A DNA stretch of 29,900 bases from IMG/VR virus record IMGVR_UViG_3300001680_000250, positions 1 through 29,900 of that record; one strand, 5' to 3'. Each line of letters starts with the position of its first letter. Positions within the stretch are counted from its first letter, which is position 1. Source of the stretch: a virus. The position numbers and the translations under genes are program-made. Positions 6,564 to 13,778 of the stretch are shown here, piece by piece. The notes below the pieces were generated by a model. That model made no database searches and had not been told where the DNA came from. It saw nothing but the letters and a program-made list of their open reading frames with translations.

Positions 6564-6965
6564 CTATTCTTGCATTTTTAAGAATTCACATTCTATGCGT
6601 GGTACATCTGACCAATACTTCCTTGCCCGTATCATGACAATTTGGCGGTCATCCGCATAATATACCCCATTTAACGAGTCTAGTATAGCTTTACAGTAGT
6701 TATCTATGTCTGCGTTGTTGTCGCAAAACTGACCTTGCTTCAGCTTTTTCTTTTTCTTGGACCATGACTTAGGTATTTGTACAAAGAAGTCTAGCTTCGC
6801 GTAAACATTTTCTTTATAAGGTTCAAAACGTACATCGTTTAGTGCCATATCCATGTCAGCTTTAAACTGAGTGTACTTCTTCGGATAGAATGTAGCCCAA
6901 CGGGTAACTCTTGGTCTTGCTGCAGGTACTGGTGTTACATAAAACGTGTTACGCATGGGTGTCAT
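6564..6965 (-). CDS. rusA: RusA-like Holliday junction resolvase
   Basis: 133 residues. The N-terminus TPVPAARPRVTR with a following YPKKY, and the core DIDNYCKAILDSLNGVYYADD (D86, D88 and D105/D106), are the signature of the RusA family, dimeric endonucleases that cut Holliday junctions symmetrically using acidic residues and a metal ion. A Lys-rich stretch (residues 70-76) suits DNA binding. Two starts are possible: ATG at 6965, only three bases after AGGAG, or ATG at 6956 with GAGG nine bases upstream and an 8-base overlap with the upstream gene. In a genome with an ERF annealing protein it would resolve recombination or replication intermediates before packaging. Confidence 0.88.
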   Translation of the reverse strand: MTPMRNTFYVTPVPAARPRVTRWATFYPKKYTQFKADMDMALNDVRFEPYKENVYAKLDFFVQIPKSWSKKKKKLKQGQFCDNNADIDNYCKAILDSLNGVYYADDRQIVMIRARKYWSDVPRIECEFLKMQE

Positions 6966-7164: not shown

Positions 7165-7181
7165 TACACTTATCATACACT
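7165..7181. promoter_or_regulatory. Pair of TACACT repeats, 11-base period
   Basis: TACACT occurs at 7165-7170 and 7176-7181, in the short gap before the 65-residue gene. The same hexamer with the same 11-base period occurs at 11896-11924. On the minus strand the stretch also reads GTGTATGAT, a possible -10 region for the 65-residue gene and rusA. Confidence 0.35.
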
Positions 7182-8115
7182 ACCATGCCATAGCCAAAGG
7201 CTTGTTGTCAGGGTTGTATCTTAAAGAAACAGTATCATCATCAGTCCATTGTAAAGAGTCTGGTTCATACCAAAAACCCCAAGTGCCTAACCAATCACCA
7301 TTACGTTGTTTAACAATTCGCATCCAAGCATCAGGTTCATCCCAAGCTGTAGGCTCATTATTCTGTTTATCTCTTTGCTTCTGCTCATTTAAGTGGATGA
7401 TTATAATATTAAATGCTAGGTTAGAGATGGCTGAACTACCTGCAATATCAAATTTGTCAGGGAAGTAATTCTTAACGCCCACTGGCGCTTTTCTACAGTG
7501 AGTAACAAGGTGAATATGCACGTTGTGTTGCTTAGCTTTAGTTGTCAGCGCTCCAATGAACTTCTTTTGGCTCTCGTTATCGTCTTGGTTAACACCACAC
7601 ATCATTAATGAATCAATCATTATGTGCTTAACGCTTTTCTGTTCTGCAGCCCAATCAATCATAGCGTAAATATCTACCTCTGCAACTGTATCTGTAGCAT
7701 CGTATATCCAAAGCCTAAGGTCAGTCTCTCTCTTAAACCTTTCATAGAACTCAGCGTGTGGCTTCGCGCCACCGTAAGCTTGTCTACACATACGAGCAAC
7801 TGTTATCTCACCTTTCATTTCCATTGAAGCGATCAATACAGATGTTGTCTTGGTTAGCCACATTGCCACTTGACCCATGACTTGAGACTTACCGTTACCA
7901 TTAATGCCTGACCAGATCGTTACTTCACCCTCTCTGAATCTAAATTTATCGTGTGTTCGTTCCCAAGGCATCTTGTCACCTGTGTGACTAATGCCATGAT
8001 CTAATAGTATCTTAGCTTTCTCTAAGAAGTCCGAAGCAGGTTTAATTAACTGTCTCTGCTTCTGTGCCTGATAGTTCTTGAATTCCTCTAGTTTAATGTT
8101 GTTCATTCTACTCAC
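7180..8115 (-). CDS. Replicative helicase, DnaB-like RecA-fold domain only
   Basis: 311 residues. The Walker A loop is GINGNGKS (residues 70-77) after GEVTIWS; SMEM (97-100) carries the conserved catalytic Glu; HIMIDSLMMCG is the Walker B strand; VHIHLVTHCRK and the late IVKQRNGDWLG fit the later RecA-fold motifs of DnaB/twinkle-type hexameric 5'-3' helicases. There is no primase domain and no DnaB N-terminal domain. A separate gene at 8753-9067 encodes a DnaB N-domain-like protein. The start is GTG at 8115 or ATG at 8106; GGGGA upstream fits the first only loosely. The enzyme would unwind DNA at the phage fork. Confidence 0.8.
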   Translation of the reverse strand: MSRMNNIKLEEFKNYQAQKQRQLIKPASDFLEKAKILLDHGISHTGDKMPWERTHDKFRFREGEVTIWSGINGNGKSQVMGQVAMWLTKTTSVLIASMEMKGEITVARMCRQAYGGAKPHAEFYERFKRETDLRLWIYDATDTVAEVDIYAMIDWAAEQKSVKHIMIDSLMMCGVNQDDNESQKKFIGALTTKAKQHNVHIHLVTHCRKAPVGVKNYFPDKFDIAGSSAISNLAFNIIIIHLNEQKQRDKQNNEPTAWDEPDAWMRIVKQRNGDWLGTWGFWYEPDSLQWTDDDTVSLRYNPDNKPLAMAW

Positions 8116-8181
8116 TTTTCCCCAAATAATAATTATCCATGATATGTTATGATTCCTTATAACAACCCATTTGCATTCCCA

Positions 8182-8760
8182 CTATTGCCATTTAACACCA
8201 CCGTAAAATCCTTTTTGATCTATGGATTGACCGTTAGGTAGTTCATCGTTCCAACGTTCGCCATTTAGATAAGTCGTAGGATTAGGTATGTATCTCTTTT
8301 CAGTTTCAACAAAACGAACCTTACAATCTTTAGTAGCTGAGTCAGCGTTAATCTTGCTGAGTTTATTGAACGAAACTAAAGCACGCTTACGGTCAGTCTT
8401 CTTTGGATAGTTATTCCAAAACGTATCGAACGCTGCATTATCCTTTTCCTTATCTTTATCATTATCATTTACATTGTTAGCAAGCCCCTTGGCAACCCCC
8501 TTACTAACCCCCTTGCTAAGGGTGTCTTCATAGACTAGCTTTTGCTTAGAGCAGTAGCCATCAATAGATGAACGAAGAGAGTGTTTGATTGACAGCCAAA
8601 GCATTGATAACATCCTATCTTCAAACTTAACATCGTCAATGTGCTGCTCATAAAACATCACACTAAAGATAGCATTGTTGAATTCATAGAATTGCTTTTG
8701 ATCTAACTCCTTTGATACTTCGTAGAAGCTTGCATAATATTTCATTACCTTTTTATGCAT
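8182..8760 (-). CDS. Replication protein / putative helicase loader
   Basis: I use the ATG at 8760, which overlaps the upstream stop by eight bases; TTG at 8778 and ATG at 8745 are alternatives. The N-terminal ~75 residues (YASFYEVSKELDQKQFYEFN, then MLWLSIKHSLRSSIDGYCSK) resemble the DUF6291-type domain of phage replication proteins. A linker follows with repeats KGVSKGVAKGLANN and a charged Asn/Asp/Lys stretch. The C-terminus (FDTFWNNYPKKTDRKRAL, then PNPTTYLNGERWNDELP) is the ending commonly seen in phage initiator or loader proteins. Its place between the two halves of a DnaB-like helicase supports a loading role, which remains inference. Confidence 0.6.
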   Translation of the reverse strand: MHKKVMKYYASFYEVSKELDQKQFYEFNNAIFSVMFYEQHIDDVKFEDRMLSMLWLSIKHSLRSSIDGYCSKQKLVYEDTLSKGVSKGVAKGLANNVNDNDKDKEKDNAAFDTFWNNYPKKTDRKRALVSFNKLSKINADSATKDCKVRFVETEKRYIPNPTTYLNGERWNDELPNGQSIDQKGFYGGVKWQ

Positions 8761-9067
8761 TGCCAACCGCCCTGCCAATTAGCCAATCACACTTAATATC
8801 TATGTTAGTGGTTAAACACACGTTCATAATAGATAGTATGTGCTTGTTAAGGTCTATATCAGTCGATTCTAGGAGCTTTTCTAGGTTCAGCAAGCCAAAC
8901 TGTTGATTAGCAATCATTTGCCTGTATATCCCCTTGTGTAAATCGAACCTAAAGTCGGTAATTGCCAAGCCTTTGATTAAGATATTCCTCATGTCACCAT
9001 CTAACAAAGTAGCGCCAATAACATCTTGCTCATTCCATTGTTGGTTTTCGCTTTCACGTTGTTGCAT
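8753..9067 (-). CDS. Stand-alone DnaB N-terminal domain-like protein
   Basis: 104 residues with GGGGA six bases before the ATG. EQDVIGATLLDGDM, then ITDFRFDLHKGIYRQMIANQ and LLNLEKLLES, follow the DnaB N-terminal domain pattern E-Q-x-V-L-G-A-L-L-L-D ... D-F ... H-x-x-I-F-x-x-M ... D-x-x-x-L. In full DnaB this helical domain forms the collar of the hexamer and contacts the primase and loader. Here the protein stops after the domain, and the RecA-like helicase domain is two genes downstream. A complex of the two products is inference. The gene begins just after a terminator hairpin. Confidence 0.7.
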   Translation of the reverse strand: MQQRESENQQWNEQDVIGATLLDGDMRNILIKGLAITDFRFDLHKGIYRQMIANQQFGLLNLEKLLESTDIDLNKHILSIMNVCLTTNIDIKCDWLIGRAVGNA

Positions 9068-9081
9068 TTTTTATCCCCTGT

Positions 9082-9105
9082 AAAAAAGGGTGGTCTTAGC
9101 CACCC
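9082..9105 (-). terminator. Leftward intrinsic terminator inside the replication block
   Basis: On the minus strand GGGTGG (9105-9100), loop CTAAGA, CCACCC (9093-9088) and six T residues (9087-9082). It lies between the gene at 9115-9360 and the DnaB N-domain gene, whose ribosome site follows within about ten bases. Read-through or antitermination would gate expression of the helicase genes. Confidence 0.8.
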
Positions 9106-9114
9106 AAATGTATA

Positions 9115-9360
9115 TTAAATAGTCATCATCATTAGCCTGAACATCGGATCGTTTATAGGCTTGCTTGCATATATCCTATCCCGTGCCATCTTCTCAATGT
9201 TTGATGCAGTGTCAACTGACACAAAAATCCTAGCAGGGTCTGAATACTTGGTTAATCTGTATGAAGCTTGCTTTCTATTCATTCCCATTTTCTTCATTAG
9301 CTCAGGAACTGTCATAATAGTTCCATCATCTAACTTGTAATTCTTGTATGTTGTTGGCAC
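9115..9360 (-). CDS. Small HTH-like phage protein
   Basis: 81 residues starting at GTG that shares one base with the previous stop (TAGTG), so translation is probably coupled; there is no independent Shine-Dalgarno. YKLDDGTIMTVPELMKKMG followed by MNRKQASYRLTKYSDP resembles the small helix-turn-helix-like modules repeated in phage regulatory proteins (a DDGT strand, then a selector helix). The C-terminus is NDPMFRLMMMTI. DNA binding is plausible but not proven. Confidence 0.55.
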   Translation of the reverse strand: MPTTYKNYKLDDGTIMTVPELMKKMGMNRKQASYRLTKYSDPARIFVSVDTASNIEKMARDRIYASKPINDPMFRLMMMTI

Positions 9361-9614
9361 TAGAAAGGAATACTATCTTCAAAGCCATCATTAGATTCTG
9401 CAGAAGGTGTAGTAGCAGGTGCTGCTTCCTTAGGTTGAACCGAAAATGATAGGGCAGGTGCTTTAGGGTTAGCATCAGCTTTACGTTTCCAAGCTGATAC
9501 CCAAAACTCTTTGCCTTCAACGTTAATAGAACCTGTGAAGTCTGGATGATTAGGCGTTGTCTGTTTGTCGTTTTTCCAAATAGAACCGCGGTTAGTGTTG
9601 TCGTAGTCTGACAT
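9360..9614 (-). CDS. Single-stranded DNA-binding-like protein
   Basis: 84 residues with AGGAG seven bases before the ATG. The sequence NTNRGSIWKNDKQ, HPDFTGSINVEGKEFWVSAW and ALSFSVQPKE fits a small OB-like beta barrel found in many phages. The acidic tail ending GFEDSIPF closely resembles the DDDIPF tip that bacterial SSB uses to dock partner proteins. Placed downstream of the ERF annealing gene, it likely coats single-stranded DNA during phage replication or recombination. The tail is what I see; ssDNA binding is inferred. Confidence 0.65.
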   Translation of the reverse strand: MSDYDNTNRGSIWKNDKQTTPNHPDFTGSINVEGKEFWVSAWKRKADANPKAPALSFSVQPKEAAPATTPSAESNDGFEDSIPF

Positions 9615-9642: not shown

Positions 9643-9761
9643 GTGTCACATTTACGTTGTGACGAACGTACTGTTCGTTAACTTGAGGACGGAGTAGGAA
9701 AAGGGAATGATAACCCTAGAACTCCACCCACTAGCCGTAGGTAGTAAACCTCTCTAGTTCT
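9643..9761 (-). other. Structured intergenic region with four consecutive inverted repeats
   Basis: Between the ERF and SSB-like genes there are four inverted repeats in a row: AGAACT/AGTTCT (9718-9723 with 9756-9761) enclosing CCACC/GGTAG (9724-9728 with 9740-9744), AGGG/CCCT (9702-9717), ACGAAC/GTTCGT (9662-9678) and GTCAC/GTGAC (9645-9663). There is no open frame of note. In the leftward transcript these would form a chain of hairpins ahead of the SSB-like gene. Confidence 0.4.
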
Positions 9762-10345
9762 TACATTCCATCTTTGTCGCTTGGCTCAAATAGCTGTGAA
9801 TAGTAATCACAAACTTGAACAAAGCCCTCATTTTTAGCAACATCATAAATATCAGATGCTGTGTCATAATCACCTTCTTTCTTGGCTTTGTCTAAGAGCT
9901 TCTTAGCGTTATTAATACGTTTGTTATGCAGTTGAGTAGCTGTTAATGGCTTCTCTTTACCTGCAGCAACATTGCCATCATCGTCTATGGCTTCCAGTCC
10001 AAACATACTAATCAAGCTGTAGCGACGGGCGTACGTTATAGCGCCACCGAATTTTTGCATATCAGCACTAGGAATGACTAAGTGCGTGTGAGATATAATC
10101 TTCTCTTCAGGATTGGAAACATTCACAATCTCTGTTGTTAGTACGTCTACACCATCATGTCTATTGGCATATTGTACATAGATTAAATTACACTCTACTA
10201 GAGCAGGTGCTAGTGAATCCATTACACCGTTAAGGTCTGCATAAGATGACTTAAAAAATGGGTTCTTAGCTGTCTTCTTAACAGCGCCAACCATTGCTCT
10301 CACCATTGACAGGCGTTCATAAATATTCAATGTTTTTGCTTCCAT
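9761..10345 (-). CDS. erf: ERF family single-strand annealing recombinase
   Basis: 194 residues, with GGGAG eight bases before the ATG and start bases shared with the previous stop (TAATG). KNPFFKSSYADLNGVMDSLAP and KFGGAITYARRYSLISMFGL are the two hallmark blocks of the ERF superfamily (P22 Erf type), ring-forming proteins that anneal complementary single strands. The C-terminal 60 residues are charged and helical and probably bind partners. With SSB-like and RusA-like genes in the same block it makes a phage recombination set that could circularise or concatenate the genome. Confidence 0.9.
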   Translation of the reverse strand: MEAKTLNIYERLSMVRAMVGAVKKTAKNPFFKSSYADLNGVMDSLAPALVECNLIYVQYANRHDGVDVLTTEIVNVSNPEEKIISHTHLVIPSADMQKFGGAITYARRYSLISMFGLEAIDDDGNVAAGKEKPLTATQLHNKRINNAKKLLDKAKKEGDYDTASDIYDVAKNEGFVQVCDYYSQLFEPSDKDGM

Positions 10346-12901: not shown

Positions 12902-13111
12902 ATGAGAAAATTAAGCAAAAAACAAAAAGCCCTAATTACTGATAATGTAATTATTAATCATGCACGGGATAAACGAGCGTTTTTTATAGTAGCTGATACA
13001 CTACAAAATTATGATGCTATTAATAACGTAAACATTTACGAAAATTTAGATGCTGATATTGAGCGTTTTTATAATGATCAAATGGTTAAGGCGGTTCTAA
13101 ATGCTAATTAA
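12902..13111 (+). CDS. Small basic hypothetical protein
   Basis: 69 residues preceded by AAAAAAGGAT about ten bases upstream. N-terminus basic (MRKLSKKQKAL), remainder helical with Asn and Asp (AINNVNIYENLDADIERFYN). No family recognised. First of three rightward genes and overlaps the GP88-like gene by 11 bases, so the two are likely linked in function or translation. Confidence 0.55.
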   Translation: MRKLSKKQKALITDNVIINHARDKRAFFIVADTLQNYDAINNVNIYENLDADIERFYNDQMVKAVLNAN

Positions 13112-13778
13112 TAATCTAATTGCACCACGTAAAAGAATGACTGATAGTAATATCAAAGTTAAGGCGTATCTGTTTAGCATGCCACCGAAAAAAAGCTGTT
13201 TAAATCATATGAGCTGTTTTGTGTCATGTTATGCAAATAAATCTTATATACAATATCCGAACGTGCAAAACCTTTGGGATGATAATTTTCATCTTGCACA
13301 AAATGATCTTGATCAATTATATTTTGACTTAAAAAGCCAATGTATAACGATATCAAAACAGACAAAACACAAACGCGTTATTAGAATACATCAATCAGGG
13401 GATTTTATAAGCCCTGAATATGTTTACCTATGGCTTAAGCTTGCTAATGAGTTTGATAATATTTTATTCTATGGGTATACAAAAGTTTTAAATGAAACGC
13501 CCGCCCTTTTTGGTGCAATTACAGAACTAAACACGCTTAAAAATGTAAACATTATCAGTAGTTTAATAGGTAACACGCAAAAGAAAAACTACGGATCAAA
13601 ACAATACGCGTTGCGAGTTGCAAAAGAAACGGGCGCGAAACTTTGCCCCGTAAATGCTGATAATGATAATCAGAATATACATTGTGGATTGTCTAGGGAT
13701 GCACGATATAACAAAACAAACGCGACTTATTGTGATCATTGCATGATTAATAATAAAGTTGTATTTATTCAGCATTAA
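13101..13778 (+). CDS. GP88-like Cys-rich phage protein
   Basis: 225 residues with AAGGCGG seven bases upstream. YLFSMPPKKSCLNHMSCFVS then CYAN (Cys 33, 39 and 43), RIHQSGDFISPEYVYLWLKL and ILFYGYTKVLNETP, and a C-terminal CPV...HCG...CDHC cluster. This order (N-terminal Cys group, H-x-S-G-D-F-x-S-x-E-Y, F-x-x-Y-T-K, C-terminal Cys group) matches what I recall of the phage 'gene product 88' family, whose molecular role I do not know to be established. The clustered Cys suggest a metal or iron-sulfur site. It runs against both flanking operons. Confidence 0.6.
   Translation: MLINNLIAPRKRMTDSNIKVKAYLFSMPPKKSCLNHMSCFVSCYANKSYIQYPNVQNLWDDNFHLAQNDLDQLYFDLKSQCITISKQTKHKRVIRIHQSGDFISPEYVYLWLKLANEFDNILFYGYTKVLNETPALFGAITELNTLKNVNIISSLIGNTQKKNYGSKQYALRVAKETGAKLCPVNADNDNQNIHCGLSRDARYNKTNATYCDHCMINNKVVFIQH

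Follow-up and report, generated by a model that had tools for sequence, protein, structure and literature searches.

Does this phage locus encode a DnaB helicase divided between two genes, or something else that includes part of one? The source record is a 29.9-kb virus fragment ("the window" is this whole stretch of 29,900 nt), with P22-like coat and P22/SU10-like portal genes among its ORFs. The initial annotation described a DnaB-like helicase split into two genes around a loader-like gene. The three ORFs are confirmed at the positions it gave, all on the minus strand (Table 1): a 104-aa product with the motifs EQDVIGATLLD and DFRFDLHKGIYRQM, a middle gene, and a 311-aa helicase-domain product (7180-8115) with the Walker A motif GINGNGKS. 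The last probably starts at the ATG at 8106, because its Met is invariant in 10 relatives; the GTG at 8115 is also possible.

Table 1. Features of the replication operon surrounding the free DnaB head gene (window coordinates).
Feature	Position	Strand	Basis
RusA Holliday junction resolvase, operon's downstream end	6564..6965	-	PF05866 4.6e-30; order kept in relatives
Lone RecA-fold (SF4) helicase, TOPRIM primase-helicase lineage by sequence, no primase half	7180..8106 (probable start)	-	PHROG profiles, tree
Phage replisome organiser / replication initiation protein	8182..8760 (probable start)	-	phrog_270, weak DUF6291 N-terminus
Free globular head of DnaB N-terminal type (PF00772-like), lacking hairpin and linker, 104 aa	8753..9067	-	Profiles, fold, HHalign
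Terminator-like hairpin, directly 5′ of the DnaB-head gene	9088..9105	-	GGGTGG...CCACCC then T6, strong
Small Ren-like protein	9115..9360	-	phrog_16568 0.0012
Single-strand DNA binding protein, same replication operon	9360..9614	-	phrog_18154 1.7e-14; conserved order
ERF-family ssDNA annealing protein	9761..10345	-	PF04404 3e-24

The terminator-like hairpin is absent from two close relatives (L003 and L004), and so may be an attenuator or due to chance. Elsewhere in the window, a Gp88-type protein (PF17338, 5.7e-21) was found among the 41 ORFs scanned; the match is possibly carried by ORF 13101-13778 (phrog_1392 9e-17). A PADLOC search gave no meaningful match for the head, organiser, or helicase gene.

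The Small Gene Encodes a DnaB Head

As a single sequence, the window's 104-aa protein matches PF00772 (the DnaB N-terminal domain) at E 0.0019 over residues 10-53, which is under the Pfam cut-off; since this could be chance, the match was not used alone, and matches across the family were needed. All eight of the family members scanned, from relatives collected in IMG/VR, match PF00772 (best 1.5e-9), so that the similarity to the DnaB N-domain initially proposed for this protein is found in the family even though the window sequence itself is sub-threshold. An NCBIfam scan of the family also found DnaB models, and the ten PDB matches to its profile are all DnaB chains. HHalign aligns head residues 1-104 with E. 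coli DnaB 14-134 (E 4.8e-6, about 24% identity). The fold predicted for a single head chain by AlphaFold2 (pLDDT 91) is that of a DnaB head: fitted to DnaB heads, the model gives Z 10.7-12.7 across ~100 residues (rmsd about 2.7), and it corresponds to E. coli DnaB residues 24-134 at Z about 12. A DNA-level search of phages gave no match, and a protein search of phages with the head found no relative. The 104-aa product is a real DnaB N-terminal domain.

Fold scores against other proteins are all below those for DnaB (DnaG 8.7 and 6.0, T4 gp41 7.1). The DnaG values reflect the fact that DnaG C-terminal domains have the same fold, and raise the alternative that the likeness to DnaB is one of fold only, the protein being instead a helicase-binding domain of the DnaG kind, with host DnaB as its expected partner. 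This is very unlikely: the head is clearly nearer to DnaB than to DnaG in sequence as well as fold. Identity with the DnaG helicase-binding domain was rejected because HHalign finds no sequence match to the E. coli version (E 0.84) and no DnaG family appears in the Pfam matches of the eight members.

In DnaB the head is followed by a helical hairpin, which builds the four-helix bundle of the collar dimer; residues I119 and I125 of the Bacillus stearothermophilus hairpin are needed for primase binding (PMC2761005). The last residue of the phage head model falls on E. coli DnaB 134, or B. stearothermophilus DnaB 117. The hairpin was found in no head-family member by alignment, and by superposition, HHalign, and alignment both it and the linker are in neither the head nor the helicase product.

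The head gene is under purifying selection, with dN/dS about 0.2-0.4 in usable pairs (e.g., dN 0.06 and dS 0.16 for L008 vs. L009). It nonetheless evolves several-fold faster than the helicase: between the window and L004, its dN is 0.25 (dS 1.2) vs. 0.06 for the helicase.

The Helicase Belongs to Another Lineage

The helicase product matches Pfam DnaB_C at 7e-10, but this is not its closest affinity. Its PHROG matches are led by phrog_5482 ("unknown," 2.8e-51) and phrog_239 ("DNA primase/helicase," 3e-44), followed by the DnaB-like phrog_19 (7.7e-20). Aligned with phrog_239 (150 bits, E 5.5e-46), it occupies profile positions 299-607 of 801; position 299 is the border between primase and helicase, so that the window protein begins just there. 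Over its first 45 residues it aligns with the linker of fused TOPRIM-helicases, and not with the DnaB hairpin or linker. Among cultivated phages, the best relatives (about 33% identity) are the TOPRIM primase-helicases from phages of Pseudomonas and Vibrio and from lambdoid phages of Salmonella/E. coli. In the PDB, the helicase profile matches Twinkle (5e-12) well before DnaB (1e-4); the phrog_239-type TOPRIM primase-helicases are distant kin of Twinkle and of T7 gp4. The family profile gives fused TOPRIM-helicases 180-220 bits, T7 gp4 21, and seven DnaB-type proteins at most about 12.

A 71-row tree also sets the DnaB rows apart (support 100/99). The T7 gp4 and DnaB branches are long, and the deepest forks of this tree should therefore not be over-read, but the nearness of the helicase to phrog_239-type proteins is independent of them. 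The AlphaFold2 model has a pLDDT of 72, and searching the helicase alignment against bacterial genomes found no relative. By its sequence relationships, the protein is the helicase half of the phage TOPRIM primase-helicases (epsilon34/ES18 type), not a DnaB. That the locus combines a DnaB head with a lone helicase of this lineage can be regarded as very probable.

A DnaB split into two genes, as initially proposed, does not fit this combination: the helicase is of another lineage and the DnaB hairpin is carried by neither product. Splitting of a dnaB gene by recombination would account for both halves of the DnaB architecture lying within 2 kb, and for the DnaB_C match. Against it stand the TOPRIM primase-helicase affinity (unless long branches mislead the tree), the missing hairpin, and the wider spread across the tree of lone helicases that have no DnaB head; it is the least probable of the explanations considered here. 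Three BLAST candidates for lone DnaB C-domains, from Vibrio phage 1.266.O and two Gram-positive phages, were rejected, as their chains are longer (413-448 residues).

The missing TOPRIM half raises the question of a primase. None was found in the window by Toprim_2, Pfam, and phrog_239 profile searches, in agreement with the initial annotation, the window being itself a fragment. There was also no match to Toprim_2 in 30 lone-helicase records, or to the first 295 positions of phrog_239 in any lone-helicase record. The Toprim_2 model was validated on four fused relatives, which match at 1e-8 to 1e-12; PF13362 (Toprim_3) misses fused relatives in the positive control, and is not counted as evidence. 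Many of the records are fragments, so the absence of a primase from them is not proof.

The Middle Gene Is a Probable Replisome Organiser

A gene does lie between the other two, but its characterization as loader-like is not borne out: its C-terminal part matches phrog_270 ("replication initiation protein," E 8.2e-16), indicating a replisome organiser or initiator and not specifically a loader. Its N-terminus has a weak DUF6291 match, and the equivalent gene in one relative a weak match to Phage_rep_org_N. It probably starts at the ATG at 8760, which would give an 8-nt overlap with the head gene (ATGCATAA); head-organiser overlaps of 4-8 nt are found in several loci. The organiser is a mosaic: its N-terminal half is unrelated from one close relative to another, but most of them share a conserved C-terminal half, which ends near TTYLNGERW.

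Distribution of the Head Among Related Phages

In a wider scan yielding more than 100 helicase relatives, most are lone proteins of ~300 residues, and a few are fused to TOPRIM. The window helicase belongs to a clade forming one branch of the tree (support 100/98). A survey of co-occurrence, as suggested by the initial annotation, found head and helicase together in all 15 of the clade records that show the helicase neighbourhood (the window, L002-L009, L012, and L021-L025); a sixteenth head-bearing record (L015) stops before reaching the helicase. Gene order is not fixed: in L021 it is organiser-helicase-head, with the head after the helicase, and L005-L007 have an extra gene between organiser and helicase but keep the head. 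The inserted gene (2362-3249 in L005; also in L006 and L007) is PAPS-reductase-like (PF01507 5.6e-5; PADLOC SspD 1.3e-10). Many clade records are near copies, so the 15 co-occurrences count as a single origin followed by retention and not as independent events; judging from the sequences, the clade acquired its free DnaB head once. PF00772 was absent in 48 of 48 records outside the clade with other lone or fused helicases, including that of a sister, L037 (38 kb).

Some related lone helicases have a different partner at the equivalent position, a CHC2 zinc finger encoded as a free protein (PF01807, E 1e-4 to 5e-5, narrowly short of the cut-off); CHC2 is the zinc-binding domain of primases. These are proteins of ~130 residues preceding the lone helicase (L039 1541-1954, L061 546-935, L062 3654-4070, L069 1333-1749, L057 4513-4929, L074 3027-3422). 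No TOPRIM was found in the records that have one, and among the ORFs searched the DnaB head and the CHC2 zinc finger never occur together. Many phages have a third protein of 110-180 aa, often starting LIAMRKAGKRP, between organiser and lone helicase (e.g., L042 3800-4291, L046 4462-4968, L066 3147-3638, L097 4678-5004); the two members scanned (L066 and L097) had no significant Pfam match. Other lone helicases have none of these proteins beside them, including that of ctXG6705, a record titled complete and circular, so a partner is not generally needed.

A possible second free DnaB head, in the gut phage record MT838936, was rejected: this 85-aa piece adjoins a bacterial gene resembling FabH and is probably a host dnaB that has been truncated. 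The open-access literature searched yielded no description of a free DnaB N-domain. The pairing of a free DnaB head with a primase-less helicase of another lineage is undescribed in the literature and family libraries searched.

Possible Roles of the Free Head

Central to replisome design is the problem of how a ring helicase brings in a primase that is a separate chain. Where a phage supplies initiator, SSB, and helicase but no detectable primase, as the evidence suggests here, its replisome must, we infer, use host DnaG. We tentatively prefer, at somewhat less than an even chance, the reading that the free head serves in trans as an adaptor, within a primosome of the phage that relies on this borrowed enzyme. 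The replisome organiser would open the phage origin, and the lone helicase would assemble into a ring unaided, like RSF1010 RepA and the T7 gp4D fragment. The DnaB head would then act in trans, connecting organiser or helicase to one of the host replication proteins whose usual contact is the DnaB collar; DnaG primase, or a partner in the host's loading pathway, is the likeliest candidate.

An adaptor within the primosome is the simplest reading because the head is inherited with the helicase, in one clade and not outside it, and is retained despite changes in gene order. The short overlaps that couple its gene to the organiser in several loci point the same way, as do the lack of any TOPRIM in the records searched and the use by related lone helicases of another free domain, part of a primase, in the equivalent slot, never together with the head. 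Three observations weigh against it: the lone helicases with neither partner, the fast evolution of the head, a pattern that a host-protein antagonist could show as well, and the lack of residues equivalent to B. stearothermophilus DnaB I119 and I125 (PMC2761005). Because of the last, the suggestion in the initial annotation that the phage captures host primase is upheld in that no phage primase was found, but weakened as to direct capture. Direct docking of DnaG on the head is possible; the Helicobacter pylori DnaB N-domain without its full linker, and so without the hairpin, binds DnaG only very weakly (PMC2761005).

The main rivals of the adaptor reading are antagonism of host DnaB and a role in helicase loading, both of which we consider unlikely, and about equally so. 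As an antagonist, the head would insert at the head-to-head contacts of the host collar, disabling DnaB or freeing DnaG and loader for the phage. The part of DnaB retained is just the part that forms these contacts, one of which is breached by lambda P (PMC6391071), and rapid evolution would fit such a protein; yet its gene lies in the replication operon and is coupled to it, tracks a single helicase clade, and is not found with takeover genes, and its identity to E. coli DnaB is low. Should the head indeed attack host DnaB, nature would have supplied a compact tool for probing the head-to-head interface. As a loading adaptor, it would bridge organiser and lone helicase, taking over in trans the part that the N-domain of DnaB plays in cis during loading. 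The gene overlaps with the organiser, and the fact that the head follows the same clade as the helicase, are what such a role would lead one to expect, but the head is kept where it is uncoupled from the organiser (L021, L025, and L008), and many pairs of organiser and lone helicase do without it.

A further possibility is a composite helicase, in which a ring of the primase-helicase lineage, not of DnaB type, receives a DnaB-type collar head in trans, so that a phage that has lost its own primase can couple its helicase to host replication proteins. This seems conceivable but rather doubtful; if true, a free zinc finger from a primase would be how sister phages meet that problem. A single tree on which the helicase is found fused to a primase, alone beside a free zinc finger, or alone beside a free DnaB head would amount to a set of natural experiments on the trading of domains.

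Comparison with Known Systems

Operons combining an initiator with helicase-handling genes are known from SPP1 (gp38-gp39-gp40) and lambda (O-P). SPP1 gp40 is a full DnaB-type chain, while lambda uses host DnaB. The locus described here resembles both in this organization; neither has a free N-domain. With the TOPRIM primase-helicases of the epsilon34/ES18/Sf101 type (phrog_239), it shares the helicase half and its place after a replication initiator gene; the TOPRIM half is missing from the window protein and was not found elsewhere in the records. The single helicase domain and its setting in a replication module are shared with other lone SF4/RecA-fold helicases (phrog_5482 and, by function, RSF1010 RepA and Lactococcus phage F13 GP46), but those of the RepA and GP46 type are not described with an adjoining free DnaB head. 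F13 GP46 is a biochemically active 5′-3′ helicase (PMC8965321).

The DnaB N-terminal domain itself (PF00772; PDB 1jwe and 1b79) has the same fold over the whole length of the head protein, with detectable sequence similarity. The phage version differs in being a separate gene, without hairpin, linker, or RecA domain, and in having invariant D15 and K92 across its family, where E. coli DnaB has S36 and Y122 at the aligned sites.
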